A DNA stretch of 33,502 nt. It comes from Desulfotomaculum sp. Its GTDB lineage: Bacteria > Bacillota > Desulfotomaculia > Desulfotomaculales > Desulfohalotomaculaceae. The stretch is taken from NCBI GenBank assembly GCA_017656165.1, contig JACDOL010000017.1, positions 1 to 33,502 on the forward strand, written 5' to 3'. A program made the position numbers and the translations under genes. Under the pieces are notes generated by a model. The model made no database searches and was not told the DNA's origin. It saw only the letters and a list, made by a program, of their open reading frames with translations. Of this stretch, positions 138-33,502 are shown piece after piece; positions within the stretch are counted from its first letter, which is position 1; every line of letters starts with the position of its first letter.

Positions 138-1190
138 TTATTTTAATGAATTTATGATTGACTGCCAATCTATGTACTGCTCCACGTTCTCTAAAGCCAT
201 CTTAATTTGTTCTTCATCCCCGGGCTTAATACGGTTGGATACTTCTGTCATGCGTTCGATGGTTGTAAAAGTATCATAATGAACGAGAATTACCGGTACA
301 CCTTTTTCGCTGGCTTTAGCAATCACCTTTACATCGGGGTACAGCCCGCCGGTAAGAATTAACACAGATGTATCAGTTTCCAAGGCTGCCAGCGCAATAT
401 CAGCACGGTCACCACCGGTTACTACTGCTTTGTTGGGGGCACGCCGCAGGTAAGCCAGTGCGCTTTCAATTGTCATGGCACCAACCACGGAATCTTCAAC
501 CGGGCGGTCTAATTTATCCTCACCGGTGAGAATTTCACCGCCAAGAATTTGATAATACTGCTCTACGGTTGGAACTGTTAGTTCGGAACGGTGGGGTACA
601 ATACCAAGTGTTTTAAAACCGTTATCGGATAATATTGCTTTGTAGACTCCTTCAGTCTTAGCCATAATCTGCCTTGGTACATTATAAAAAACATTTCCTA
701 CCACCGGTATATTGTGGCACTGAAAATAGCGATTAAAAAATACTGTTTGATCAAGGCTGAAATCATTTTTGACTTTTATCATATGCAGAACAGCGGCATT
801 AAACTGCTTGGCTAAGGAGGCAACATCAAATTTCATACTGGCCATGGCATGAGGGAAAATTGCCCCGTCAATTATAACCACATCGGCATCCTCTGATACT
901 TGACTATAGGCGGAAGTTATTTTGCTTAATATTTCTTCGTTTTGATGATAGCGGGTCAGGTAAAAGGGACTGGTATGACAAGGCACTATTGTTTCAATAG
1001 CATGTTTAATACCCAGGACCTTTTGCATTAATAAGCCGTCTTCATCCACATTGTACCCTGTAGCAGTTGTAATACCTATGGGCTTAAAATAACTTACCTT
1101 GTAACCTTCCTGCTGCAGTTTTAGTCCCAGCCCAACTGCCATGGCTGTTTTAGCACTGCCGGCAGTGCCTGTGATATAGAGGTTTTGCAT
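138..1190 (-). CDS. BioD-like P-loop/DRTGG-domain protein (phosphotransacetylase N-terminal-like)
   Basis: This 350-residue protein resembles the non-catalytic N-terminal part of long phosphotransacetylases. It has a dethiobiotin-synthetase-like P-loop domain (residues about 1-200, with GTAGSAKT at 8-15) and a DRTGG-type domain (about 205-310, containing GGDRAD). There is no Pta catalytic domain, so it is more likely a nucleotide-sensing or regulatory partner than an enzyme that makes acetyl phosphate. I chose the ATG at 1190 because GAGGTG lies 7 nt upstream. A GTG at 1205 overlaps the upstream stop codon but has no Shine-Dalgarno site. It is translationally linked to the acyl-CoA synthetase gene and ends at a strong terminator. 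The P-loop departs slightly from GxxGxGK[ST]. The ligand is unknown. Confidence 0.8.
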   Translation of the reverse strand: MQNLYITGTAGSAKTAMAVGLGLKLQQEGYKVSYFKPIGITTATGYNVDEDGLLMQKVLGIKHAIETIVPCHTSPFYLTRYHQNEEILSKITSAYSQVSEDADVVIIDGAIFPHAMASMKFDVASLAKQFNAAVLHMIKVKNDFSLDQTVFFNRYFQCHNIPVVGNVFYNVPRQIMAKTEGVYKAILSDNGFKTLGIVPHRSELTVPTVEQYYQILGGEILTGEDKLDRPVEDSVVGAMTIESALAYLRRAPNKAVVTGGDRADIALAALETDTSVLILTGGLYPDVKVIAKASEKGVPVILVHYDTFTTIERMTEVSNRIKPGDEEQIKMALENVEQYIDWQSIINSLK

Positions 1191-1201
1191 TGAAGAACAC
1201 C

Positions 1202-3319
1202 TCACGATATAGTTATTTTAATATCTATTGCAGACAAACCGTCTTCATAGGCAAACAGCGGGTTAATATCCATTTCAGCTATTTCCGGGAAGTCTAGAAC
1301 CAGTTTTGCTGCTCGAGCGATGACATCAATTACAGCGCCAAGATCAGCTGGTTTTTTCCCGCGATAGCCTTTTAATAAAGTGTATGCTTTAGTTTCTCCG
1401 ATCATTGATGTTATTTCGGCAATGGTAAGATTGCTGGCCAGGCGGAAGGAAACATCCTTGAGAAGGTTTACATATATTCCACCTAGGCCAAATGCAATCA
1501 TGGGGCCGAACTGAACATCCCGGGACATCCCAATTATTAATTCAGTGCCCTCGGGCTCCATTTTTTGAACTTCGATACCGTAAGGCAGTACCTGGGGCAA
1601 ATACCTCTGGACACTTTCCATAATCTGAAAGTAGCCTTCCCGGACCTTTTCTGGAGAATCTACATTAAGAAGAACTCCACCCACGTCAGTTTTATGCAAA
1701 ATCTTAGGTGAAGCAACTTTCATCACTACAGGGAAACCGATTTCTTCAGCCAGTTTAACCGCTTCATCGGCAGAAGCAGCCAGCTTCACCGGCGATGCAG
1801 GAATACCGTAAGCCTTAGCTACTTCATAAGTTTCACTGCCCAGCAGTACCCGGCGTTTATCTCTGAACACGTCGTAAAAAACTGCCTTTACAGTCCTTGA
1901 ATCCACATCTGTATAGTTCAGTGCCGAATCTTCACTTTTTTCTAAATGATCTTTTGCGTGTGCATATTTTATCATCCCTTTAATGCAGTGAATGGCAGGT
2001 TCCGGAAAAGTAAAGTTAGGTATGCCGGCTTTAGAAACAATTTTAACTCCTTCTTCTACGGTTGAACCGCCCATAAAAGACGTGAATAGGGGTTTTTCTG
2101 GATAGGTTTTGTTTACCTTAACTATGGCATTGGCGATGGCTACCGGGTCTGTAATAGCTGTTGGGCAGAGCAGCACCACTGCACAGTCGACGTTTGGGTC
2201 AGCCAGTACTTTGTCCAGGGCAAATTCAAACCTGTCTTCATTTGCATCGCCTAGAACATCCACCGGGTTATAAATATTTGCTTCAGCTGGCAGATTTTTG
2301 CGAAGGGCTTCAATGGTATTCTTGGAAAAACGGGCCATGTTTAAACCGTTATTTTCAATGGCATCGGTTGTGATGATACCGGGACCGCCGGCGTTGGTAA
2401 TGACTGCCACACGGCTGCTTTTGGGAATAGGTTGCTTGGAAAATGCCGCTGCTAGATTAAGCAGTTCAGTGATACTGCGGGCACGAATGACACCGCAGTG
2501 TTCAAAGGCAGTTTCATAAGCTAAATCGCTCCCTGCCAGGGCACCGGTATGAGATGAGGCGGCTTGTGCACCGGCCTGGCTGGTACCAGATTTAAAAACA
2601 ATAACTGGTTTTTTAGAAGCAGCTTTTTTTGCTGCTTCTAAAAATTTTTTGCCGTCAGTGACGTCTTCAATGTATGCCAGGATAACGCTGGTGTTAGGAT
2701 CATCAGCAGTGGCGTTAATAAAGTCAGCTTCGTTTAGAAGAGCTTTATTGCCAAGACTGATAACCCTTGAAAATCCCAAACCTGTTTCTTGACTCCAATC
2801 CACCAGTGATACAAGCATGGCTCCGCTTTGAGATATAAAGGCAATGTTGCCTTTATTTGGGGAAACAGAAGAAAAGGATGCATTTATGGGTGTAATTGTG
2901 TCCATAATTCCTACACAGTTGGGACCCAGCATATTCATATTGTTTTTCTTTACTATTTCAACCAGCTTTTTTTCCAGCTCCATACCGTCGCTGCCAGTTT
3001 CTTTAAAACCAGCAGATAAAATTACCAGGTTTTTGATACCTAGACCGGCTGCTTCTTCAACAACACTAATACAAATTTTTGCTGGGACCGAAATGACTAC
3101 CATATCAACAGGTTTACCGATCTCGGAAAGTGAACGATACGTTTTAATCCCTTCAATATACCCGCCCTTGGGGTTTATGGGATAAATTTCACCTTTAAAT
3201 TTACTGGAGATAATATTTTTCATTACCGCATTCCCAATTTTACCGGGAGCAGCGGAGGCCCCGACGACAGCTACTGAATTAGGATTAAAGAAGGTTTTCA
3301 GGTCGGCCAACTTTTTCAC
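1202..3319 (-). CDS. Acyl-CoA synthetase (ADP-forming), fused alpha-beta subunits
   Basis: This enzyme converts acetyl-CoA or another acyl-CoA, ADP and phosphate to the acid, CoA and ATP in the cytoplasm. The 705 residues show a CoA-binding Rossmann domain (1-130, VAVVGASAAPGKIGN), succinyl-CoA-ligase-like flavodoxin domains (about 150-450) with the phospho-histidine at H257 in SSHTGALAGSD, and a C-terminal ATP-grasp domain (about 495-705). This is the alpha-beta fusion form; no GNAT acetyltransferase domain is attached, so it is not a Pat protein. The start is GTG, preceded only by a weak AAAGTAGG. It has its own near-consensus promoter and overlaps the next gene's possible GTG start by 4 nt. 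Substrate range (acetate, propionate, branched or aryl acids) cannot be read from sequence. Confidence 0.92.
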   Translation of the reverse strand: MKKLADLKTFFNPNSVAVVGASAAPGKIGNAVMKNIISSKFKGEIYPINPKGGYIEGIKTYRSLSEIGKPVDMVVISVPAKICISVVEEAAGLGIKNLVILSAGFKETGSDGMELEKKLVEIVKKNNMNMLGPNCVGIMDTITPINASFSSVSPNKGNIAFISQSGAMLVSLVDWSQETGLGFSRVISLGNKALLNEADFINATADDPNTSVILAYIEDVTDGKKFLEAAKKAASKKPVIVFKSGTSQAGAQAASSHTGALAGSDLAYETAFEHCGVIRARSITELLNLAAAFSKQPIPKSSRVAVITNAGGPGIITTDAIENNGLNMARFSKNTIEALRKNLPAEANIYNPVDVLGDANEDRFEFALDKVLADPNVDCAVVLLCPTAITDPVAIANAIVKVNKTYPEKPLFTSFMGGSTVEEGVKIVSKAGIPNFTFPEPAIHCIKGMIKYAHAKDHLEKSEDSALNYTDVDSRTVKAVFYDVFRDKRRVLLGSETYEVAKAYGIPASPVKLAASADEAVKLAEEIGFPVVMKVASPKILHKTDVGGVLLNVDSPEKVREGYFQIMESVQRYLPQVLPYGIEVQKMEPEGTELIIGMSRDVQFGPMIAFGLGGIYVNLLKDVSFRLASNLTIAEITSMIGETKAYTLLKGYRGKKPADLGAVIDVIARAAKLVLDFPEIAEMDINPLFAYEDGLSAIDIKITIS

Positions 3320-3351
3320 CTACTTTGCCCAGTTATGGATAGCTTTACCCC

Positions 3352-3381
3352 ATTATATTAGTTTATTTGTTTGCATGTCAA
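3352..3381 (-). promoter_or_regulatory. Sigma-A promoter of the acyl-CoA synthetase operon
   Basis: On the minus strand, TTGACA (3381-3376) and TATAAT (3357-3352) are separated by 18 bp. Both hexamers are perfect consensus. The start of transcription should be near 3345, about 25 nt before the GTG start. The promoter lies just after the ackA terminator, so the two transcripts are separate. Confidence 0.85.
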
Positions 3382-3382
3382 T

Positions 3383-3412
3383 TAAAAGAAAAAGGGCTCT
3401 AAATAGAGCCCT
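3383..3412 (-). terminator. Rho-independent terminator of ackA
   Basis: The 8-bp stem AGGGCTCT/AGAGCCCT (3393-3412) has a 4-nt loop and is followed on the minus strand by TTTTCTTTT. It lies 15 nt past the ackA stop codon. Confidence 0.88.
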
Positions 3413-3426
3413 AATATAAAAAACCT

Positions 3427-4623
3427 TTATTTTATTACCAGTGCCTGTGTTTCTTTGGCAATCATTAACTCTTCATTGGTGGGGACAACCATAGCCACTG
3501 TGCTGCAGCCTTCTTTAGTAATTATTGCTTCCTTGCCTCTTACATTGTTTCTATCTGAATCCACTTCTATACCCAAGTAGGACATATCTGCCAGCACTTT
3601 TGCCCGGAGGTCAATAGCATTCTCACCAATGCCGCCGGTGAATACCACAACATCTAATCCACCCATTGCAGCACTGAATGCTCCTATCCACTTCTTAACA
3701 TGGTAAATAAACATATTTAATGCCAGCTCAGCCCTTTTATTTCCTTCAGCCTGGGCATTTTCCAGGTCGCGGAAGTCACTGCTGATACCGGATACACCTA
3801 AAACGCCGCTTTTTTTGTTCATTATATTGCTGACTTCTTCAGGACTTAGATTTTCTTTTTCCATAAGGAAGGGTACTATAGCCGGGTCAATATCACCGGA
3901 ACGGGTACCCATTGGCAGACCGGCCAGGGGAGTAAAGCCCATGGTTGTATCTACAGATTGACCGTTCTTAACAGCAGTGATGCTGGAGCCGTTACCCAGG
4001 TGGCAGACGATCACTTTAAGATCAGTCAGCGGTTTACCCAGGATAGCTGCTGCCCGCCCGGATACATATTTGTGTGATGTTCCGTGGAAACCGTACTTCC
4101 GAATGCCATATTTTTCATAGTACTCATATGGCAGCGCATAATTAAAAGCGTAATCAGGAATTGTTTGATGGAATGCTGTATCAAAAACCCCAACCTGTGG
4201 AGCATGGGGCATTAACTCCTGGCATGTTTTAATACCAAGAACATTGGGCGGATTGTGCAGTGGTGCCAGTTCATAGAGAGATTCCAGCGTGTCTATTAAT
4301 TCTTCGTTAATTAAAACAGCCTTGTTGAACTTTTCGCCGCCGTGTACTACCCGGTGACCTACAGCTGCTATTTCAGAAATATCATTTACGGCCCCGTATT
4401 CCTTGTCAGTAATACATTCAATAATTTTTTCCAGGGCTGCCTTGTGGTCGGGCAGGTCCTGCTCCAACTGCAGTTCTTTACCGTCGTTTTTCTTGTGCTT
4501 AATTCTGGAACCTGGCAGGCCGATTCTTTCTGCCAAACCTGACAGCAGAGCTTTTTCTTCTTTCATGTCCATCAACTTGTACTTCACAGATGAGCTTCCG
4601 CAGTTTACCACTAAAATAAGCAA
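3427..4623 (-). CDS. ackA: Acetate kinase
   Basis: Acetate kinase converts acetyl phosphate and ADP to acetate and ATP in the cytoplasm and works in both directions. The 398-residue length is typical. Visible motifs are NCGSSSVKYKL at the N-terminus, GHRVVHGGEKF, the phosphate-binding CHLGNGSS, PMGTRSGDIDP and FTGGIGEN. The start is TTG with AGGAGG 8 nt upstream; there is no nearby ATG. It lies downstream of pduL on the same strand but has its own likely promoter and a tandem palindrome. With PduL it forms a complete acetyl-CoA to acetate route giving one ATP. Confidence 0.97.
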   Translation of the reverse strand: MLILVVNCGSSSVKYKLMDMKEEKALLSGLAERIGLPGSRIKHKKNDGKELQLEQDLPDHKAALEKIIECITDKEYGAVNDISEIAAVGHRVVHGGEKFNKAVLINEELIDTLESLYELAPLHNPPNVLGIKTCQELMPHAPQVGVFDTAFHQTIPDYAFNYALPYEYYEKYGIRKYGFHGTSHKYVSGRAAAILGKPLTDLKVIVCHLGNGSSITAVKNGQSVDTTMGFTPLAGLPMGTRSGDIDPAIVPFLMEKENLSPEEVSNIMNKKSGVLGVSGISSDFRDLENAQAEGNKRAELALNMFIYHVKKWIGAFSAAMGGLDVVVFTGGIGENAIDLRAKVLADMSYLGIEVDSDRNNVRGKEAIITKEGCSTVAMVVPTNEELMIAKETQALVIK

Positions 4624-4688
4624 CGATGTTTCCTCCTTTGTAATATGTATATTTACTTAAATATTTAACTTTAATTTTTGCGGGATTG

Positions 4689-4717
4689 ATTATAAAAAGT
4701 TATACCCAATGAATTAA
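4689..4717 (-). promoter_or_regulatory. Likely promoter of ackA
   Basis: On the minus strand a perfect TATAAT (4694-4689) sits 17 bp after TTAATT (4717-4712), which matches the -35 consensus only partly. It lies about 65 nt before the ackA start codon. The weak -35 overlaps the edge of a tandem palindrome, which suggests regulated initiation. Confidence 0.5.
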
Positions 4718-4745
4718 CCCGGGTTATTTATAACCCAGGTTAATT
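4712..4745. repeat. Tandem 12-bp palindromes / long inverted repeat upstream of ackA
   Basis: TAACCCGGGTTA (4715-4726) is a perfect palindrome. TAACCCAGGTTA (4731-4742) is a second copy with one changed base, 16 bp away centre to centre. Together they can fold into a 15-bp stem with one mismatch and a TTTA loop. No T-run follows on either strand, so a terminator is unlikely. The position against the ackA -35 element suggests a paired regulator-binding site, but an RNA hairpin between pduL and ackA is an alternative. Confidence 0.55.
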
Positions 4746-4794
4746 TCAAGGATTATTATATATTTTTTACAATTTACTGCAATAAATTACACAC

Positions 4795-5493
4795 TTACTT
4801 ACTTAAAATTTCGGAAATATGTCCCTGGTGGATGTAGGCAGTCAGAATATCTCCATTTCTGAGTCCCACTGCATTTGCCTCGTCAGTATCAACATGCATT
4901 TCCAGCTTAAATTTATCGCTAACGCGGATTAGTACGTCTCCAAAGATGATGCCCCGGGGGCCTTTTGCTCTTACACTTACTTTGTCTCCATCCTTTAAGC
5001 CCAGTTCTTCTGCTTCTGAAGTGTGCATGTGAATATGACGGGCAGCAATGATTGCACCTTCTTCCAGGGACAGGGTTCCTTTAGGACCAACCAGGGTAAT
5101 GGGGGCTGAACCTTCCAGGTCACCGGAATCTCTCAACGGGGCTTTTACACCCAGCTTAAAGCTGTCTGTGACAGTAATTTCTACCTGGGACTGCTTGCGA
5201 GCGGGGCCCAGTACTCTTACTTTTTCAATTACACCCTTAGGACCTACCAGCATAACTGTTTCTTCACAGGCATACTGTCCTGGTTGAGACAGGTCCTTTA
5301 ATTTAGTTAATTGGTAGCCGGGGCCGAACAGTTTTTCAATATGTTCTTCTGAAAGGTGAACGTGGCGGTTAGAGATTCCTACAGGCACTTGAAAGGTCCG
5401 GGGTTGGATCACAGTCAGGCGATCTTTTTGCTCTTCCTTGCTTTCCGGCATTTGGTTGACGGTAACATTGTTATTGGATTTTTCATTTAACAT
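4795..5493 (-). CDS. pduL: Phosphate propanoyltransferase (PduL-type phosphotransacylase)
   Basis: PduL exchanges CoA for phosphate on acetyl- or propionyl-CoA. It is unrelated to Pta and binds zinc through histidines. The 232-residue protein has VPVGISNRHVHLS (H44, H46), the EETVMLVGPKG and GSAPITLVGPKG beta-barrel repeats, and ARHIHMHTSEAEELGL in the second domain. I chose the ATG at 5493, with GGGAG 8 nt upstream; a longer open frame upstream covers the promoter region and has no Shine-Dalgarno site. About 35 polar residues precede the first domain. They do not look like the amphipathic helix that targets microcompartment enzymes, and no shell genes are nearby, so this is probably a free cytoplasmic enzyme acting with AckA. 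Confidence 0.93.
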   Translation of the reverse strand: MLNEKSNNNVTVNQMPESKEEQKDRLTVIQPRTFQVPVGISNRHVHLSEEHIEKLFGPGYQLTKLKDLSQPGQYACEETVMLVGPKGVIEKVRVLGPARKQSQVEITVTDSFKLGVKAPLRDSGDLEGSAPITLVGPKGTLSLEEGAIIAARHIHMHTSEAEELGLKDGDKVSVRAKGPRGIIFGDVLIRVSDKFKLEMHVDTDEANAVGLRNGDILTAYIHQGHISEILSK

Positions 5494-5583
5494 GAATATC
5501 ACTCCCTTTAAGGTAATCTTTAACAAACTTAGCCAGGGGCCATGTATACAATTAACATAAGTTGGGTAATATGTATTATGTAT

Positions 5584-5612
5584 ATTATATAATGGCTGGG
5601 TGGTCAGACCAC
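5584..5612 (-). promoter_or_regulatory. Probable pduL promoter with FadR/GntR-like operator
   Basis: On the minus strand a TATAAT lies at 5589-5584, about 90 nt before the pduL start. The 13-bp perfect palindrome GTGGTCAGACCAC (5600-5612) occupies the -35 position, where the hexamer (GTGGTC) is far from consensus. Its core TGGTCnGACCA is the site type recognised by FadR-subfamily GntR regulators. Regulation by such a protein is inferred; no regulator gene of this family is in the window. Confidence 0.5.
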
Positions 5613-5819
5613 TAATATAAAAAAACAAGACAAATTGTATAGAGACTAAATATTTAAAGTGTATTGTTTCACAATTCCATTATGCAATAGGATAGGAATA
5701 CTGTCAACAACTGTATAAAATGTTAGAATCTTTTGTTTAAACAGTTATTTCTGTATTTATTATCTCATCTTGCTGGAAAGATTATAAAAGCACTATTTGG
5801 TAGTATTGTTAATTAAAGA
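5613..5819. other. AT-rich intergenic stretch between ylbJ and pduL
   Basis: Together with the pduL leader this gives about 326 bp without a gene. It is AT-rich, with only weak inverted repeats such as ATTGT-TTC-ACAAT near 5663. I see no clear terminator for ylbJ, no small gene with a ribosome-binding site and no RNA gene. Confidence 0.5.
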
Positions 5820-22813: not shown

Positions 22814-23176
22814 TTAAAATAGTTCAAAATACTCATCTAATTCCCAATTAGTAACATACGTTTGAAACCGTTCCCATTCTGCCATCAGCAGTGATGTATA
22901 GTTGGTTATAAACTCTTCACCTAAATATTTCACCAATACTTCATCCTGCTTCAGTGTTTCCAAAGCTTCTGGTAGGTTTCGGGGTAGTGGAGCTAATTGT
23001 TGCTGTTCATAAGGGTTTTTGCCATCACTGCTGGCAGGTGGTTCAATTTTATTGATTATGTCATCAAGAGATGCCGCCAGCACTGCCGAAGCTGCCAAGT
23101 AAGGGTTTGTGTCAGCACCAGGCATTCTGTTTTCTAGACGAGTATTGTCTTCTCACTGGTTGGGCACTCTTATCAT
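22814..23176 (-). pseudogene. C-terminal fragment of a glutamine synthetase-family enzyme
   Basis: The frame reads IRVPNQ, then a TGA stop at 23155-23153, then EDNTRLENRMPGADTNPYLA. This is the conserved R-x-E-N-R-x-PGADxNPYLA region of glutamine synthetases and gamma-glutamylpolyamine synthetases. It continues to a C-terminus ending in YVTNWELDEYFELF. Only about 115 of roughly 440 residues remain; the ATP-grasp core and the whole N-terminal part are missing. Sequence similarity continues upstream across the TGA and stops where the bactofilin gene ends, 6 nt away, so a deletion junction is likely. A shorter ORF starts at the ATG at 23125. No catalytic activity is possible. Confidence 0.85.
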
Positions 23177-24810: not shown

Positions 24811-25629
24811 ATGGACTTTGGTTTTGTAGAGTTAAATAACTTAACGCACAATAGTGATTACTATATCCCCTGCACCTTAAACGGTCTTCCTGTAACCCTG
24901 CACAAGCATCGTTTCACCATGTATATCAGTGGGGAGGCGGCTCTAAAGGCGTTTTCTGGCTGTGCTGAATTCAATGCTTGGCGGAACAAACCGGTAGTTA
25001 TTAATGAGGGGAGAGAACTAAAACTTCCCCAGGTTTCTTTGGAGTTTAATGAGTGTGATTTAAGCTTTAAAAGTTTAGCCGGTTATAATTTATCTACCTC
25101 GCGCTTTAAAAGTGTTTATCTTAAGGGAGCTAACCTAACCAGCACAGATTTGTCCGGAGTTCATTTTGAGAATGTTGATTTTAATGGGGCAGACTTATCT
25201 GGTGCCAGGCTAAACCGGTACAGTCAATTTATAAACTGCATATTTGAAAATGCCAATGTCAGGAACACCGCCCTGCCAGGCTTATTGTCGGGTGCTGTGA
25301 TTGGATCATTTAAGCGGTTTAAATTTGAAAACTGCCGGGTGCTGCCGGGAGTAGAAATGTCTCTTCCCAGGGATACCGGAAAGCAGAAAATGCTAATTCA
25401 AAAGGTGAGAAAACTAACATCTGCATTAAAGCCGGTGGATAATACATGGATTTTTATAACGGCAGCCCAGCTGCTGCACTGTGAAGATGCGTTTAATATT
25501 CCCGATCCCCACACTAAATTTTTGGAAGAACTGGGGAAGTCATATCCTTCATGGGATGGTATAGAAAATATAGAAAAAATAGTGGCAGAAATATCAGCAG
25601 AACTAGTTTTTAAAAAGCTTCGTGCTTAG
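24811..25629 (+). CDS. Pentapeptide-repeat protein of a MoxR/VWA cassette
   Basis: This 272-residue protein has a central run of pentapeptide repeats (about 85-150; e.g. NLSTSRF, YLKGANLTSTDLSGVHFENVDFNGADLSGARL). This predicts a short right-handed beta-helix of perhaps three coils. The N-terminal 80 residues (with a basic HKHRF) and the C-terminal helical part (about 185-272) match nothing I recognise. There is no signal peptide or membrane segment. The ATG follows GGGGGA. It lies 12 nt before a MoxR-like ATPase, so the protein is probably a partner or substrate adaptor of that ATPase. The repeat block is too short to resemble the gyrase-binding Qnr type closely. Confidence 0.75.
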   Translation: MDFGFVELNNLTHNSDYYIPCTLNGLPVTLHKHRFTMYISGEAALKAFSGCAEFNAWRNKPVVINEGRELKLPQVSLEFNECDLSFKSLAGYNLSTSRFKSVYLKGANLTSTDLSGVHFENVDFNGADLSGARLNRYSQFINCIFENANVRNTALPGLLSGAVIGSFKRFKFENCRVLPGVEMSLPRDTGKQKMLIQKVRKLTSALKPVDNTWIFITAAQLLHCEDAFNIPDPHTKFLEELGKSYPSWDGIENIEKIVAEISAELVFKKLRA

Positions 25630-25641
25630 AGGTGATGTCAG

Positions 25642-26712
25642 TTGAAGGTTAATGAAGTTATTGAGGTGATAAGTACTATCTACCAGCTGGGGGAAAAAGC
25701 CCCGGCTGTAAATTTAATAGGCAAACCGGGTATAGGTAAATCGGCAGCAGTTTACCAGGCGGCAGAAAAAATAGGATACCAGTTGGGATTAAGCGGTCCC
25801 ATTCCAGTGGTTGACATTAGATTAATTCATGTAAATCCTGTTGATCTCCGGGGACTGCCCTACCCTGATGTGGAGCGGGGACTGGCAGTGTGGCTTCAGT
25901 CGGGGCTTTTGCCTGCTGTAGAGCAGTACGGAGAACACTTAATATTATTTTGGGACGAGCTTACCTCAGCGCCACCTACTGTTCAAGCAGCGGCTTACCA
26001 GGTAATCTGGGAAAGAAGATTGGGAGATTGGAAGATGGCTCCTAACTGGATACAGGTGGTGGCTGGGAACCGCCTTACTGACAGGGGAGTAACATATAAA
26101 ATGCCTACCCCACTGGCCAACCGTATGATTCATCTGCCGGTGGAAGAGGACTTAGATGACTGGAAAAAATGGGCGCTGGAAAATGGCATTGACTCCAGGA
26201 TAATTGCTTTTTTAAATTTCAGGCCCCAGCTTCTGTGCACTTTTGATTCCAATAATGATAACATTGTTTTTGCCAGTCCCCGTTCCTGGGAGATGCTTTC
26301 CAATGTGCTGAAATGCTATCCCGATCCTAACACTTCCAGTACCGCAGCTGAGGTGGTTAAAGGCACAGTGGGAGAAGGAGCGGCGTCGGAGTTTTTAGCG
26401 TTCTGCAGGGCAGTTAAGAAACTGCCTGATATAGATGAAATTCTGCAGGGACAAGCTGTGGATGTACCCAGTGAACCAGACATATTGTACGCGCTGAGCA
26501 GTGCACTGGCAGCACGGCTGGTAAAAGAAGCTGAACATGGAGAAATTCAAGAACGATTGAGAAATTTTATTATGTATACCATGAAAATGCCGGATGAGTT
26601 CTCAGTTTTAACAGTTAGAGATGCTCTTAGATCAGAACTGGTAGCCCAAAAACTCCAGGCGCTGCCCGAATGGGTGGAATGGGCTGCAAAATACCGTAAA
26701 TTTATTTTATAA
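25642..26712 (+). CDS. MoxR-like AAA+ ATPase
   Basis: The 356-residue protein is an AAA+ ATPase of the MoxR/AAA_5 type, which usually acts as a chaperone that remodels a target with a VWA partner. Walker A is GKPGIGKS at 27-34. Walker B is ILFWDELTSAP, sensor 1 is in VVAGNR, and an arginine finger candidate is in PLANRMIHLPV. A helical lid follows. The start is TTG with AGAGGTGA upstream; the nearby ATG is in another frame. It sits between the pentapeptide gene and the VWA gene with gaps of 12 and 18 nt, so the three are co-transcribed. Confidence 0.9.
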   Translation: MKVNEVIEVISTIYQLGEKAPAVNLIGKPGIGKSAAVYQAAEKIGYQLGLSGPIPVVDIRLIHVNPVDLRGLPYPDVERGLAVWLQSGLLPAVEQYGEHLILFWDELTSAPPTVQAAAYQVIWERRLGDWKMAPNWIQVVAGNRLTDRGVTYKMPTPLANRMIHLPVEEDLDDWKKWALENGIDSRIIAFLNFRPQLLCTFDSNNDNIVFASPRSWEMLSNVLKCYPDPNTSSTAAEVVKGTVGEGAASEFLAFCRAVKKLPDIDEILQGQAVDVPSEPDILYALSSALAARLVKEAEHGEIQERLRNFIMYTMKMPDEFSVLTVRDALRSELVAQKLQALPEWVEWAAKYRKFIL

Positions 26713-26730
26713 ATACGGGAGTATTTGAGA

Positions 26731-27897
26731 ATGAGTAATGAGGATAAAGCTAAAGATAAATTAACCAGGGCAAAAATAAAGGTCCTCTTAAAAAATCCCT
26801 TTTTTGGAACCCTGCTTATGTACCTTCAGCCTGTTTCTGAACAGTCAGTAAACCGGGTGGATACTGATGGAGAAAACCTGTATTATAACCCGGGCTGGTT
26901 TATTAACTTAACTGAAGATGAGATTGCAGCAGCTATTTGTCATACAGTACTGCACTGCGCCCTGGGGCACCTGTGGCGCAGGGGTTCCAGAGAACCTCAA
27001 CGATGGAATAAGGCGTGTGACCATGTTGTTAATTTAATACTTGCTGATGAGGGATATAAGATTCCGGGTGATATGCCGGCGGACAAGCTGTACCGGGGGA
27101 AGAGTGCAGAAGAAGTTTACAATTTACTGGGTACCAAAGAAACAGGGGGCATAAAAAAGAATAACCTTCAAGGTGACAGCGGCAGCGATGACAGAAGCGC
27201 AGGAAAAGATTATGAGCCCGTTGATCAGCACCATCGTTGGGAAGCTAAGAGACACGATTTTAAATTCCGGGGCGGCGCTGTGGATCAGCTGTGGAAAGAA
27301 AGGGTAGCCCGGGCGGTTCAGACAGCACGCAGCAGGGGTGATATGCCCGGCGCTTTAGAAAGGGCTGTGGGAGGTTTTTTGTACCCGGAAAAAAACTGGC
27401 GGGTTGTGCTGGCGGAGTTTTTAACCAAGATAAAATCTGATTACAGCTGGCTGCCGCCTGACCGAAGGCTGGTACCTTATAATATACTGGTACCGGACCT
27501 GGGTGAAGAGGAAGAAAGGCTGGAAGATATTGTAGTGGCAGTGGATACCTCCGGGTCGGTAGATAACAGTCAGCTGCAGAGATTTTTATCTGAGGTCCGG
27601 GCTATTACTGCATCTTTTCCCACTATAAATGGTCACCTGGTTTTTTGTGATTCTAAAATTCAGGGATGGTATAACTTGACGGATTTTAATAACATTATTC
27701 CCAGGGGTGGTGGGGGTACTGATACCCACCCCGTTTTTAGAGAAGTTGAAAAAAGAAGATTAAACCCATCAGCGCTAATTTATTTTACAGACGGGATGAC
27801 ATTATATCCTGTGATTGAACCGGATTATCCTGTTTTGTGGGTTCTTACATCTGAAAACAAAACCCCTCCATGGGGCAGGAAGATAATTTTTAAGTGA
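26731..27897 (+). CDS. VWA-like protein with putative metallopeptidase domain (DUF2201 type)
   Basis: The 388-residue protein has an N-terminal putative metallopeptidase-like domain (about 1-200) and a C-terminal VWA domain (about 260-388). The VWA domain keeps the metal-ion site: DTSGS, the threonine in GGGGTDTHP, and the aspartate in YFTDGM. The peptidase motif, normally HExxH, reads HTVLH (71-75) with H80 downstream and WNKACDHVVN, so the catalytic Glu is missing. A polar, low-complexity linker (about 140-175) separates the domains. I chose the ATG at 26731, with GGGAG 9 nt upstream, over a TTG 6 nt earlier. Proteins of this type pair with MoxR ATPases; the target is unknown. Confidence 0.88.
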   Translation: MSNEDKAKDKLTRAKIKVLLKNPFFGTLLMYLQPVSEQSVNRVDTDGENLYYNPGWFINLTEDEIAAAICHTVLHCALGHLWRRGSREPQRWNKACDHVVNLILADEGYKIPGDMPADKLYRGKSAEEVYNLLGTKETGGIKKNNLQGDSGSDDRSAGKDYEPVDQHHRWEAKRHDFKFRGGAVDQLWKERVARAVQTARSRGDMPGALERAVGGFLYPEKNWRVVLAEFLTKIKSDYSWLPPDRRLVPYNILVPDLGEEEERLEDIVVAVDTSGSVDNSQLQRFLSEVRAITASFPTINGHLVFCDSKIQGWYNLTDFNNIIPRGGGGTDTHPVFREVEKRRLNPSALIYFTDGMTLYPVIEPDYPVLWVLTSENKTPPWGRKIIFK

Positions 27898-28022
27898 TGT
27901 AATTTAATTAAGTTCCCTACATATTTTTGATATCTGTTACCAGGATATTATCACCAGCAGGGCGAATATTTGCTTTTTGTGCACGTCAATATAGCTCTAA
28001 CATGCTGAATGGAGGGATGATG

Positions 28023-28826
28023 ATGAGTGTAAGGATAGCCATTATTGGGGGAACAGGAGTATATGATCCTAATATCCTGTCAAATATTCGAGAAGAAAAA
28101 ATCAGTACACCTTTTGGGGAAACGGCGGTGAAAATTGGCCAATACCAGGGCAAAGATGTGGCATTTTTAAACAGGCATGGGGCCGGTCACAGTGTACCGC
28201 CTCACCTGGTAAATTACAGGGCAAACATTGCGGGATTAAAGAAACTAGGTGTAAAAACCATTATTGCTACTGCTGCGGTTGGGTCTATTAATGAAAAGAT
28301 GAAGCCGGGAGATTTTGTTTTCTGTGACCAGTTTTTAGATTTTACTAAATCTCGTCCTTCTACTTTTTTTGAAGGAGGCGAGAACGGTGTAGTGCATGTG
28401 GATGTAACTGATCCTTACTGCCCGGGGCTGCGAAAAGTAATGGCTCAGGTGGCTGATGAGTTGAAATTATCTTACCACCAGGGTGGTGTTTATGTAACGA
28501 CAGAGGGACCCCGGTATGAGACACCAGCCGAGATAAAGATGTTCAAAAAACTGGGTGGTGACTTGGTAGGTATGACCAGCGTGCCTGAAGTGGTGCTGGC
28601 CAGGGAAGCAGGAATATGTTATGCTACCGTCTGCATGGTTACAAATTTTGGTGCTGGGATTTCTGAAAACCCCTTAACACATGAGGAAGTACTGGAAGTA
28701 ATGGATAAAAATGCAGAAAATCTGCGCAAACTGGCCATGGGTACAATATCAAAACTTTCTCTTGATCGGGAATGCGGCTGTCATACTGCCGTAAGCGGTC
28801 CCATGCATGAACTGTTGAAAGGGTGA
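28023..28826 (+). CDS. mtnP: MTAP-family phosphorylase, likely for methylthioinosine/6-oxopurine nucleosides
   Basis: This 267-residue enzyme phosphorolyses a 5'-methylthio-purine nucleoside to base and methylthioribose 1-phosphate. Family motifs are IIGGTGVYD (phosphate loop), FLNRHGAGHSVPPHLVNYRANI, GSINEKMKPGDFV and MTSVPEVVLAREAGICYA. The base pocket, however, has E166 (GPRYETPAE) and N208 (MVTNFGAG). Adenine-specific MTAP has Ser and Asp there, while 6-oxopurine enzymes have this Glu/Asn pair. I therefore expect methylthioinosine or inosine as substrate. Of three successive ATG codons, the third has GGAGG at 7 nt. It is the first gene of the salvage operon, 6 nt before mtnA. Confidence 0.88.
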   Translation: MSVRIAIIGGTGVYDPNILSNIREEKISTPFGETAVKIGQYQGKDVAFLNRHGAGHSVPPHLVNYRANIAGLKKLGVKTIIATAAVGSINEKMKPGDFVFCDQFLDFTKSRPSTFFEGGENGVVHVDVTDPYCPGLRKVMAQVADELKLSYHQGGVYVTTEGPRYETPAEIKMFKKLGGDLVGMTSVPEVVLAREAGICYATVCMVTNFGAGISENPLTHEEVLEVMDKNAENLRKLAMGTISKLSLDRECGCHTAVSGPMHELLKG

Positions 28827-28832
28827 TAAGCT

Positions 28833-29912
28833 GTGAAGACCATGATTTGGGAAGATGGGATACTAAAAATATTAGACCAGACGAAACTGCCGGAAAAAAT
28901 AGAGTATATTGAAGCAAAAGATGTAGAAACAGTTGCCGGTGCAATCAGAAGGCTTAGTGTACGCGGTGCACCTGCCATAGGTGCCGCTGCTGCTTATGGA
29001 ATGGTTTTGGGGGCCAACAGTATAAACGAAAATGACAGGGAAAAATTTTTAGCTGAGCTGAACAGTATAGGTAATAAGCTGGCTTCCACCCGGCCCACTG
29101 CTGTAAACCTTCGCTGGGCTGTTGACCGGGTGCTGAACAAGGTAAAGAACCGGGACGATTTAAATGTAGAAGAAATAAAGGCGCTGCTTCTAGAAGAAGC
29201 ACACAAAATTTTCTGTGAAGACCTGGAAGCAAACCGGAAGATGGGTGAATACGGGCAGAGTTTAATACCGGAAAATGCCCGCATCATAACTCACTGCAAT
29301 GCCGGTGCACTGGCCACTGCAGGATTTGGTACTGCACTGGGTGTTATTAGAGCTGCTCACCGGGCCAATAAAAACATCGAGGTCTTTGCCGATGAAACAC
29401 GCCCGCTCCTCCAGGGAGCAAGGCTCACAGCCTGGGAAATGATGCAGGAAAAAATACCTGTTACATTAATTACTGACAATATGGCAGGATATTTAATGGC
29501 TGTAGGGAAAGCTGACCTGGTTATTGTTGGAGCTGACCGGATAGCAGCAAATGGGGATGTGGCTAACAAAATTGGTACATACGGCCTGGCAGTGCTGGCC
29601 AAGGCCCATGGACTGCCATTTTATGTTGCAGCTCCAACATCAACCCTGGACTTAAGTTTATCATCTGGAAGCCAGATTCCCATTGAAGAAAGGGATGAAA
29701 CTGAGGTTACCACTATTGGCGGTACAAGTGTAGCTCCAACCGGGGTTAAAGTCTGGAACCCGGCCTTTGACGTAACACCGCACGAACTGGTTACTGCAAT
29801 TATTACAGAACGCGGAGTGGTTAAACCCCCTTATACTGAGAACCTGCGCAAAATAATGGAAAAGGATACTGAAACCAGTGAAGTCTGCCGGGGACAAAAT
29901 CCTTCCCGGTAA
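28833..29912 (+). CDS. mtnA: S-methyl-5-thioribose-1-phosphate isomerase
   Basis: MtnA converts methylthioribose 1-phosphate to methylthioribulose 1-phosphate. It is related to eIF2B subunits. The 359-residue protein keeps RGAPAIGAAAAYG, catalytic Cys155 in THCNAGALATAGFGTALG, Asp235 in GADRIAANGDVANKIGTY, and NPAFDVTPHELVTAIITERG. The start is GTG with AAGGGTG 7 nt upstream. It takes the product of the preceding phosphorylase and supplies the class II aldolase encoded two genes later. The C-terminal tail after KIMEKD is not conserved in my memory of the family. Confidence 0.96.
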   Translation: MKTMIWEDGILKILDQTKLPEKIEYIEAKDVETVAGAIRRLSVRGAPAIGAAAAYGMVLGANSINENDREKFLAELNSIGNKLASTRPTAVNLRWAVDRVLNKVKNRDDLNVEEIKALLLEEAHKIFCEDLEANRKMGEYGQSLIPENARIITHCNAGALATAGFGTALGVIRAAHRANKNIEVFADETRPLLQGARLTAWEMMQEKIPVTLITDNMAGYLMAVGKADLVIVGADRIAANGDVANKIGTYGLAVLAKAHGLPFYVAAPTSTLDLSLSSGSQIPIEERDETEVTTIGGTSVAPTGVKVWNPAFDVTPHELVTAIITERGVVKPPYTENLRKIMEKDTETSEVCRGQNPSR

Positions 29913-29927
29913 AAGGAGGAGATGCTG

Positions 29928-31184
29928 ATGCCGGATTATTTAATTAAAGATATAAATTTAGCACCGGAAGGCCGTTTAAAAATTGATTGGGTAAGCAAAC
30001 ACATGCCGGTCTTGAACTCCATTAAGAAAGAATTTGAAAAGGAAAAACCTTTTAAGGGGATAAAAATAGCAGTCAGCATTCACCTGGAGGCCAAAACAGC
30101 ATATCTTGCTGAGGTGTTGGCCGCAGGAGGGGCAGATGTGTCCATTTCAGGTTCTAACCCGCTATCCACCCAGGATGATGTTGCCGCTGCTCTAGCTAAG
30201 GCGGGTATTAAAGTATATTCCTGGTATAATGCTACTCCTGAAGAATACAAGGACCACCTGCTGCATGTACTGGAAAATAACCCTGACATAGTTATAGATG
30301 ATGGCGGTGACCTGGTTCATCTGCTTCACTCTGAGCGACAGGACCTTGCTGGTAATGTTAAAGGCGGCTGTGAGGAAACTACCACCGGGGTGCTGAGGCT
30401 GCGTGCACTAGAAAAAGAAGGTGGCCTTAAGTTTCCAATGATTGCAGTTAATGATGCCATGTGCAAGTACCTGTTTGACAACCGTTACGGGACCGGGGAA
30501 TCGGTTTGGACCGGCATCATGCGCACCACTAATTTGATTGTTGCCGGAAAAACCGTTGTGGTTATGGGCTACGGTTGGTGCGGTAAGGGTATAGCAATGA
30601 GGGCAAAAGGTTTGGGGGCCAAAGTTGTAGTTACTGAAGTAGACCCTGTTAAAGCCATAGAAGCTCATATGGACGGATTTGCAGTAATGCACAGCCTGGA
30701 AGCAGCAAAACGCGGGGATATCTTTATTACTGTTACAGGCTGTAAAGATGTACTGGTAGAAGAACATTATAAACTGATGAAAGACGGGGCTATAATGTGC
30801 AACGCCGGTCATTTTGACGTGGAAGTAAACAAGCCTGATCTGTACCGGCTGGCCAGTGATGTGCGTACTGTTCGGAAAGACATTGAGGAATTTACCATGC
30901 CTGACGGGAGAAAGCTGTACCTTTTGGCCGAGGGCAGGTTGGTAAATTTGGCTGCAGGTGATGGGCACCCGGCAGAAATAATGGATATGTCATTTGCCCT
31001 ACAGGCCCTGTCAGCCAAGTATGTGCTCGAAAATGCTGGAAAACTTGAGAGGCGTGTGTATAACGTTCCAGGTCACATTGATGGCCGGGTAGCAAACATC
31101 AAACTGCAGTCCATGGGTATCGATATTGACAAACTTACTCCTGAACAGGAGAAATATATTAATTCCTGGAATCATGCTGAATAA
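29928..31184 (+). CDS. ahcY: AhcY-family hydrolase (S-adenosyl- or S-inosyl-homocysteine)
   Basis: This 418-residue NAD-dependent hydrolase recycles the by-product of SAM-dependent methylation to homocysteine and a nucleoside. It has [20 protein letters not shown], the NAD loop [26 protein letters not shown] and NAGHFDVEV. It is the short archaeal-like form: it ends at [13 protein letters not shown], without the C-terminal KPxxYRY of eukaryotic enzymes. The adenine-contacting Thr57 and Glu59 of the human enzyme align with E54 and K56 (HLEAKTA). This fits an S-inosylhomocysteine hydrolase such as that described in Methanocaldococcus, but the assignment is open. The ATG at 29928 has GGAGG 8 nt upstream. 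Confidence 0.92.
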
Positions 31185-31199
31185 ACCGGTGGGTGGTGA

Positions 31200-31865
31200 A
31201 TGCCTGTGAAGTTCAAGCTGACAGTAGAAAAGGCCAGGGAACGTGTAGCTAAGTTCTGCCAAAAAATAGCTGATTCAAATTTGAACTTAAGTACCTGGGG
31301 GAATATATCCTGCTACCTCCCTGATGAAGAACAGGTTGTAATCACTCCCAGTGGTATGAGCTATAAAGAACTCAGACCTAATATGCAGGTGGTTGTAGAT
31401 ATGAAAGGTGAAGTGCTGGAAGGAGAGTTGAAACCTTCCAGTGAATTAAAGGTGCACCTGGCCATTTATACTCACCGCAGCGACGTTAGAGCAGTGGTGC
31501 ATACTCACAGCGCCTATGCCAGTGCCCTGGCGGTATCTGGTATCCCAATACCGCCGATATTGGAGGATATGGCTGCTCTTATTGGCGGTGAAGTATCGGT
31601 GGCGGAATATGCTATGGCTGGCAGTGAGCAGCTGGCAGAAAATACAATTAAGGCGCTGGGTGATAAAAATGCCGTTCTGCTGGCCAACCACGGTGTAGTT
31701 GGAGTAGGAAGGAATTTAGAAGAAGCCTTTGATGTGTGCATGATGGTAGAGCGGTGTGCACAAATTTATATATTGGCTAGGCTTGCCGGAGATCCCAAAA
31801 TACTTTGCCCAGAAGATGTGTCTGCATTAAGAGAGTTTTATCTTTATAAGTATGGGCAAAGATAA
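31200..31865 (+). CDS. Class II aldolase, probable methylthioribulose-1-phosphate aldolase
   Basis: This 221-residue protein is a zinc-dependent class II (fuculose-phosphate type) aldolase. It has LSTWGNISC in the phosphate loop, VITPSGMSYKEL, the acidic residue and metal histidines in SSELKVHLAIYTHR and VVHTHSAYASALA, and LLANHGVVGVG. In Rhodospirillum rubrum a related aldolase cleaves methylthioribulose 1-phosphate to dihydroxyacetone phosphate and methylthioacetaldehyde, and the operon here supplies exactly that substrate. The loop is closer to aldolases than to the dehydratase MtnB. The ATG at 31200 is close to its Shine-Dalgarno site (GGTGG); a GTG 6 nt later is an alternative start. Confidence 0.85.
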   Translation: MPVKFKLTVEKARERVAKFCQKIADSNLNLSTWGNISCYLPDEEQVVITPSGMSYKELRPNMQVVVDMKGEVLEGELKPSSELKVHLAIYTHRSDVRAVVHTHSAYASALAVSGIPIPPILEDMAALIGGEVSVAEYAMAGSEQLAENTIKALGDKNAVLLANHGVVGVGRNLEEAFDVCMMVERCAQIYILARLAGDPKILCPEDVSALREFYLYKYGQR

Positions 31866-31879
31866 TTGGAGGTATAATC

Positions 31880-33178
31880 ATGTCCCAAATACTGGTTCGC
31901 AATATAAATATTCTCACCATGGCAGGACCTGAAAATATAATTGAAAACGGGGAAATTGCCATTTCTGGAGATAAAATTCTTTCTGTTGGCACCAGTGGAT
32001 CAGCTCCCAAGGATTTTAAACCGGAATTAGAAATAGAAGGCGAAGGCATGGTGGCCATGCCCGGTTTTATCAACTGCCATACCCATGCTGCCATGACCCT
32101 CTTACGGGGATATGCTGATGATATGCCGTTGATGGAGTGGTTAAATAAGAGAATTTGGCCGTTGGAGGCCAAAATGGGAGAAGAAGACATATATTACGGA
32201 ACCCTGCTGGCCTGCCTGGAAATGATAAAATCAGGCACTACCACTTTTAATGATATGTATGCATATATGGACAAAGCGGCTGATGCTGTTTCAGAAAGCG
32301 GCATGAGGGCAGTGCTGTCAAGGGGATTGATAGGAGCTGCTCCCAATGGCAGTGAAGCATTAAAAGATGGAATTAACTTTGTGGAAAAATATCAAGGTGC
32401 TGCTGGGGGGCGCATTACCACTATGCTTGGTCCCCATGCCCCCTATACCTGTCCGCCCGAATACTTGGAAAAGGTTATGGAAGCAGCAGAAGATCTAGGC
32501 GTGGGAATACACATACACCTGGCGGAAACACTGGATGAACACCGGGATATTGTTAAACAGTATGGTAAAACACCGGTACAGCACTTGGAAAGCTTAGGTC
32601 TCTTTAATTATCGTACTCTGGCAGCTCATTGTGTGCATGTAGATGAAACTGACATAAAGATACTGGCAGAAAATCATGTGGGTGTGGCCCATAACCCTGA
32701 AAGCAATATGAAGCTTGCCAGCGGCATTGCACCGGTACAAAAGATGATTGAGACCGGTGTTAAGGTAGGACTAGGTACTGATGGTGCTTCCAGCAACAAT
32801 AACCTGGATATGCTGGAAGAAATGCGCACCGCTGCTTTATTACAAAAAGTATCGAACATGGACCCCACGGTGATGCCGGCATACAAGGCACTGGAGATGG
32901 CCACTGCAGGCGGGGCCAGGGCACTAGGCATGGAAGGCATAATTGGCCAGTTAAAACCAGGAATGAAAGCAGATCTAATACTGGTAGACTTTAGTGCTCC
33001 CCATTTAATGCCCCAGCATGACTATTATGCTCATATGGTTTACTCGGCACACAGTGCGGATGTTAAGACCGTAATAATTGATGGGGAACTGGTAATGCAG
33101 AACCGTAAGGTACTGACCATAGAGGAAGAAGAAGTTATTAAGCATGTGAAAAGATGTGTAAAAAAGCTGCTCAGTTAA
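31880..33178 (+). CDS. mtaD: 5-methylthioadenosine/S-adenosylhomocysteine deaminase
   Basis: MtaD deaminates methylthioadenosine and S-adenosylhomocysteine to their inosine forms. It is an amidohydrolase-family protein of 432 residues. Metal ligands are H67 and H69 (NCHTHAAM), the His in HIHLAET, the following His in AAHCVHV, and the Asp in GLGTDGASSNNNLDM. HNPESNMKLASG is also typical. GGAGG lies 8 nt before the ATG. It is the last gene in the operon, yet its products are the expected substrates of the two upstream hydrolytic/phosphorolytic enzymes. Confidence 0.95.
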   Translation: MSQILVRNINILTMAGPENIIENGEIAISGDKILSVGTSGSAPKDFKPELEIEGEGMVAMPGFINCHTHAAMTLLRGYADDMPLMEWLNKRIWPLEAKMGEEDIYYGTLLACLEMIKSGTTTFNDMYAYMDKAADAVSESGMRAVLSRGLIGAAPNGSEALKDGINFVEKYQGAAGGRITTMLGPHAPYTCPPEYLEKVMEAAEDLGVGIHIHLAETLDEHRDIVKQYGKTPVQHLESLGLFNYRTLAAHCVHVDETDIKILAENHVGVAHNPESNMKLASGIAPVQKMIETGVKVGLGTDGASSNNNLDMLEEMRTAALLQKVSNMDPTVMPAYKALEMATAGGARALGMEGIIGQLKPGMKADLILVDFSAPHLMPQHDYYAHMVYSAHSADVKTVIIDGELVMQNRKVLTIEEEEVIKHVKRCVKKLLS

Positions 33179-33185
33179 CCGAAAA

Positions 33186-33206
33186 GCCCGAGGCTAAGCC
33201 TTGGGC
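33186..33206 (+). terminator. Possible terminator after mtaD
   Basis: GCCCGAGGC/GCCTTGGGC forms a 9-bp stem with one G-U pair and a 3-nt loop, directly after mtaD. The sequence after it on the plus strand (ATTAAATATGTTT) has only a weak T content; the minus-strand side has TTTT. Confidence 0.5.
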
Positions 33207-33327
33207 ATTAAATATGTTTGGATAAAAATTACAAAAGGAAGTGCATTTTTTTGCTAGAAGACATATAACCTGTTAGGTCATAAATAAAGGGAAATGTGTG
33301 ATGCTGCATGACTAACAACAGTTATAT

Positions 33328-33502
33328 ATGCTATTATTATTTAACGGCATTTTTATACTGGCTGTCCTGGTCTGGGTTTTTTATGCCTTAAAATTAAAAA
33401 GTATACAAAATTACTCTACTTCTTTAAGCATACACATAATAGGAGTAATGATACTGGCAGTGGGTGCAGTTTTAACTCTTGCTGAAGAATTAAATATTAT
33501 TA
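33328..33502 (+). CDS. Possible membrane protein, truncated by the window edge
   Basis: An open frame of 58 codons starts at ATG 33328 and runs off the right edge without a stop. It has two hydrophobic segments (residues about 4-20, FNGIFILAVLVWVFYAL; about 37-55, IHIIGVMILAVGAVLTLAEE) with a polar stretch between them. No Shine-Dalgarno site precedes the ATG, and an in-frame stop lies five codons upstream. The function is not recognised. The start may be wrong, or the frame may not be a gene. Confidence 0.35.
   Translation, partial: MLLLFNGIFILAVLVWVFYALKLKSIQNYSTSLSIHIIGVMILAVGAVLTLAEELNII

Follow-up and report, generated by a model that had tools for sequence, protein, structure and literature searches.

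The window analyzed here, a 33,502-nucleotide stretch of a Desulfotomaculum sp. genome, carries a gene for a phosphorylase which probably cleaves 6-oxopurine 5'-deoxy-5'-substituted nucleosides, mainly 5'-methylthioinosine (MTI) and probably also 5'-deoxyinosine and inosine, rather than methylthioadenosine (MTA), in a route where deamination comes first. As the base pocket is of the inosine type and a matching deaminase gene adjoins, the phosphorylase most likely acts after deamination. The gene is the first in a run of five on the same strand, with gaps of 6-15 bases, in the order MTIP, MtnA, AhcY, class II aldolase and MtaD:

28023-28826 (+): putative 6-oxopurine (MTI-type) phosphorylase of the MTAP/PNP family, 267 aa (TIGR01694, NF006599, Pfam PNP_UDP_1, AlphaFold2 model)
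28833-29912 (+): MtnA, S-methyl-5-thioribose-1-phosphate isomerase (TIGR00512, 465.4 bits, cut-off 279)
29922-31184 (+): AhcY, adenosylhomocysteinase (TIGR00936, 637.2 bits, cut-off 497.6)
31200-31865 (+): class II aldolase, probably of the DHAP-shunt type (Ald2/DrdA-like; Pfam Aldolase_II; best solved relative 6btd, 1.3e-45)
31880-33178 (+): MtaD, probable MTA/SAH deaminase-type amidohydrolase (Pfam Amidohydro_1; best solved relative 4f0r, an MTA/SAH deaminase, 1.3e-97)

Reading frame and overall relationship

The open reading frame of the phosphorylase spans 27927-28826 (+), and ATG codons at 28017, 28020, and 28023 could serve as internal starts. The last of these is the best; it follows GGAGG by about 6 bases, gives 267 aa, and fits the residue numbers of the initial annotation. 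Over its full length, the protein has the MTAPs 2a8y and 1v4n as its nearest PDB relatives (2.4e-70). An AlphaFold2 model (33 sequences, pLDDT 84, pTM 0.87) gave VIA Z values of 33.9 for 1v4n, 33.2 for human MTAP, 30.6 for 3OZB, and about 25 for PNPs, and the identity in the structure alignments was 35-46% to MTAPs versus 22-32% to the PNPs listed. Among viral contigs, no relative was found.

Base pocket

Two short segments hold the residues that would distinguish the purine base:

28515-28523 (+): Tyr165-Glu166-Thr167; Glu166 falls on Glu201 of human PNP and Ser178 of MTAP
28641-28652 (+): Thr207-Asn208-Phe209-Gly210; Asn208 aligns with PNP Asn243 and MTAP Asp220, and Gly210 with MTAP Asp222

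The codons of E166 (28518-28520) and N208 (28644-28646) are 42 residues apart. When the pocket segment (residues 150-236) was run by phmmer against PDB chains, query positions 4-60 fell on 188-244 of the 289-residue PNP chains 2a0w, 2a0x, and 2a0y with unchanged length, and positions 4-84 fell on 188-270 of 1pf7_E, so that E166 lies on PNP 201 and N208 on PNP 243. The claim of the initial annotation that the pair has the spacing of human PNP Glu201/Asn243 is thereby borne out. Searched by itself, this segment is closest to PNPs among PDB chains (1vmk, 6.4e-20), unlike the full protein.

Human MTAP (1CB0) shares the fold of the window protein at about 40% identity, but its aligned chain has S and D/D in place of Glu166 and Asn208/Gly210. 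These residues (S178, D220, and D222) belong to the active site and are common to three compared MTAPs but not shared by human PNP (PMC5738077), in agreement with what the initial annotation had stated for human MTAP. The P. aeruginosa MTIP (3ozb), with GPRLET and VVN at the two places, has the same Glu/Asn pair; the comparison with MTAP, PNP, and the Pseudomonas enzyme, suggested earlier as a check, thus puts E166 and N208 in the base pocket. Previous studies showed that the human PNP double mutant E201Q:N243D cleaves adenosine-type substrates (PMC2799393), and that the Asn to Asp exchange alone raises the catalytic efficiency for adenosine about 4,000-fold (PMC6128611). The pair is no chance match, since it is present in all 59 readable primary copies of the order (58 loci, L033-L090, plus the window).

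5' site and substrate range

28680-28682 (+): His220 of THEEV, in line with the 5'-hydroxyl histidine of PNPs

His220 stands where PNPs have the histidine contacting the 5'-hydroxyl, and it is kept in 159 of the 180 family proteins with Glu/Asn and in 25 of the 35 with Ser/Asp. The MTIP of P. aeruginosa, whose kcat/Km for inosine is far below that for MTI, has Met there instead. As His220 resembles PNPs and not the Pseudomonas MTIP, the window phosphorylase may accept inosine and 5'-deoxyinosine as well, and a strict specificity for MTI becomes less credible. The Pseudomonas enzyme (PA3004, 3OZB) shares the fold (VIA Z 30.6, 36% identity) and the Glu/Asn pocket of the window protein, and MTA deamination precedes it, as proposed here (PMC6302742). 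Methanocaldococcus jannaschii MtiP, which is likened by description, carries out phosphorolysis of MTI and 5'-deoxyinosine, is reported to be active on six purine nucleosides, and is accompanied by a 5'-deoxyadenosine deaminase in the same organism (PMC6302742). MTI-type phosphorylases are already known from these two organisms.

It is rather unlikely that the enzyme is an ordinary PNP acting mainly on inosine and guanosine, with MTI cleavage as a side reaction. The pocket and His220 are PNP-like, no other PNP-class gene was found in the own genome, and Glu/Asn copies without MtaD occur; however, MtnA, the aldolase, and MtaD are adjacent, and the full-length protein is closer to MTAPs than to the PNPs listed. 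The 6-oxopurine reading of the initial annotation is retained, supported by the pocket, by MtaD in the run, and by the finding of no other MTA-splitting enzyme in the genome, while MTI as the single substrate is made less certain by the PNP-like His220 and by the Glu/Asn relatives that lack the deaminase.

Proposed route and own genome content

MtaD would deaminate MTA and 5'-deoxyadenosine, and the phosphorylase, presumably a trimer working in the phosphorolytic direction, would then yield hypoxanthine and MTR-1-phosphate. MtnA would turn the latter into MTRu-1-phosphate, which the class II aldolase would split into DHAP and an aldehyde. S-adenosylhomocysteine would be dealt with by AhcY of the same run, and hypoxanthine could be reused by Hpt, encoded elsewhere in the genome. 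If true, MTA salvage would run through hypoxanthine and not adenine in many anaerobes.

The names of MtaD and the aldolase rest on their nearest relatives, because neither reaches the cut-off of any NCBIfam model listed, the aldolase scoring 76.5 with the MtnB model (cut-off 137.05). The five genes are presumably co-transcribed. A promoter scan of 27700-33502 returned 9 promoter-like sites, fewer than in shuffles (mean 11.3), and 9 terminator-like sites were counted in the same interval versus a mean of 5.7 in shuffles. Rfam gave no match at the gathering score over the window, and no SAM or SAH riboswitch was seen. Just 5' of the run, 24811-27897 (+) encodes three proteins: one with pentapeptide repeats, one whose match to AAA ATPase is weak, and one that is DUF2201 metallopeptidase/VWA-like.

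The own genome is 99.9% complete according to the tool used. PNP_UDP_1 occurs in two genes, the window phosphorylase and L003, and the latter is a futalosine hydrolase (NF006087, 325.7 bits, cut-off 213); no MTA nucleosidase and no hexameric PNP were therefore found, and MTR kinase had no match in this genome. Hpt and Apt have one match each over cut-off, and the presence of Apt, which would reuse adenine, is a point against the MTI-type reading. As the genome holds one MtaD match together with the futalosine hydrolase, MtaD could also deaminate aminofutalosine. At L003, 255-1762 (-), the futalosine hydrolase gene adjoins an ORF which resembles MqnD by eye and has no NCBIfam match.

The best solved relative of the aldolase, 6btd, is presumably the B. 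thuringiensis 5-deoxyribulose-1-phosphate aldolase of PMC6079011. This relationship, and the phosphorylase-isomerase-aldolase clusters predicted for 5'-deoxyadenosine (PMC6079011), would fit a run whose main role is the disposal of 5'-deoxyadenosine via 5'-deoxyinosine and not MTA salvage. We regard this as rather unlikely; the enzymes are reported to be promiscuous for both substrates, and the two roles are not separated by the present data.

For the DHAP shunt, two entries have been named, namely a nucleosidase plus a kinase (MtnN and MtnK) or MtnP, followed by MtnA and Ald2 (PMC10986504). The window shares MtnA and a class II aldolase with this shunt, whereas its entry would consist of a deaminase and an MTI-type phosphorylase. 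In those parts of the literature that were consulted, no description of the combined operon (MtaD, MTI-type phosphorylase, and DHAP shunt) was found, though one may well have been published. We tentatively suggest, at nearly even chances, a third, deamination-first entry that is common in the order. In it, MtaD and a single 6-oxopurine 5'-deoxynucleoside phosphorylase of broad range would take the place of MTA nucleosidase, MTR kinase, MTA phosphorylase, and PNP and, together with AhcY, would serve the salvage of MTA, 5'-deoxyadenosine, and adenosine; the deaminase is often missing from lineages with a Ser/Asp MTAP, which sometimes stands beside apt.

Distribution in the order and phylum

All 60 order genomes have a match to the phosphorylase family, that of G057 being a fragment without the pocket. 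MtaD is present in 56 of the 60, being absent from G057 and from the g27 genomes G026, G036, and G045, and it lies within the fetched locus in 51 of the 58 order loci. In four genomes (G013, G026, G036, and G045) the cluster holds a second copy that has Ser and, where the sequence extends far enough (L061 ends before this position), Asp. The Ser/Asp copy of L052 adjoins an adenine phosphoribosyltransferase (NF002636, TIGR01090), and ORFs similar to it were read by eye at the same place in L059 and L061. G013 has MtaD and the Ser/Asp copy side by side. A different second copy, 32-34% identical, whose Glu/Asn pair sits in a modified motif (DGRHFES, VVNYAEG), was seen in the close relative G019 (L091, 4493-5314 (-)); the own genome has none of this kind.

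In the phylum, 103 of 149 genomes have a family copy. With an E threshold of 1e-80, MtaD was present in 77 of the 82 family-bearing genomes without a Ser/Asp copy versus 7 of the 21 with one, and by taxonomic family the split was 41/44 versus 7/14. G078 was counted as MtaD-negative, its neighboring MtaD match (51% identity) being under the threshold. MtaD is not tied to the phosphorylase, since 29 of the 46 genomes that have no family copy contain it as well. Conversely, Glu/Asn enzymes also exist without MtaD, as seen in two settings. Eleven genomes carry both copies but yield no MtaD match that reaches the threshold (G203, G071, G132, G091, G112, G066, G183, G150, G026, G036, and G045), and in several of them MtnA adjoins the Glu/Asn copy. 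In family f72, all three genomes have the Glu/Asn type alone and likewise yield no MtaD at this threshold; the two loci examined place the gene next to diaminopimelate dehydrogenase and gltX instead of salvage genes. Such enzymes are perhaps general 6-oxopurine phosphorylases.

Pocket classes in the family

The survey comprised 239 loci, of which 59 came from the order, 80 were named genome contigs, and 100 came from the phylum, and loci with the gene cut or out of size range were left out before the pocket count. The 221 complete ORFs of 230-310 aa gave 215 distinct proteins, which were aligned with the window protein. Among these 216, the pocket pairs were bimodal, with 180 Glu/Asn, 35 Ser/Asp, and 1 Glu/Met, proportions which are not those of all life because the sample was drawn with queries from the phosphorylase family. 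At position 210, Glu/Asn proteins have Ala, Gly, or Cys, and Ser/Asp proteins invariably have Asp. Positions 166 and 208, with 210, assign 215 of the 216 proteins cleanly to one class or the other, which provides a simple testable rule. The single Glu/Met member (L270, 5962-6768 (+); EGPRKET, VTMYS) fits neither class.

A same-strand MtaD gene occurs within 6 kb of 130 of 180 Glu/Asn genes versus 2 of 35 Ser/Asp genes (loci L052 and L174), or 110/144 versus 1/20 when only full flanks are considered, while Apt is a neighbor in 6/180 versus 8/35. However, on a FastTree tree built without the pocket columns, the pocket type changes once and the MtaD neighborhood 16 times, leaving one independent pair. 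The neighborhood counts are therefore not independent, and a Fisher test on them (p 1.2e-7) provides no independent evidence. The pocket marks one deep split, and its association with MtaD is not replicated in the tree.

Names given by profile models

The highest NCBIfam score of the phosphorylase is that of the MTAP equivalog TIGR01694 (318.9 bits, cut-off 274.85), but it also passes the NCBI MTI phosphorylase model NF006599 (263.7 bits, cut-off 223), and it falls under the cut-offs of the PNP models NF006054 (162.4 vs. 218) and TIGR01697 (148.6 vs. 197.1). Among eight relatives scanned, NF006599 was passed by 5/5 Glu/Asn and 0/3 Ser/Asp proteins, so that, in this small set, an NCBI model already separates the pocket classes, whereas both types pass TIGR01694. 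Annotation pipelines can thus give the gene a name for the wrong purine, as had been anticipated; yet with both models over cut-off, the name is ambiguous and not uniformly wrong. That the protein is a true MTA phosphorylase, as the top-scoring TIGR01694 would name it, is very improbable, given that its pocket lacks Ser/Asp/Asp, which forms a separate, fully linked set (35/216, none mixed with Glu/Asn), that the neighboring deaminase would use up the substrate, and that mutations at the equivalent PNP residues have been published.

Other genes of the window

Elsewhere in the window, 138-5628 (-) holds together an acyl-CoA synthetase-like ATP-grasp protein, a DRTGG protein, an acetate kinase (by eye), and a PduL-type phosphotransacylase, which suggests acetate or acyl-CoA energy metabolism. 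Finally, a 103-aa ORF at 22814-23125 (-) matches glutamine synthetase only at the end of its catalytic domain (positions 242-344 of the 344 in the profile) and is probably a gene remnant; the 3' end of a bactofilin gene lies 57 bases upstream of it.
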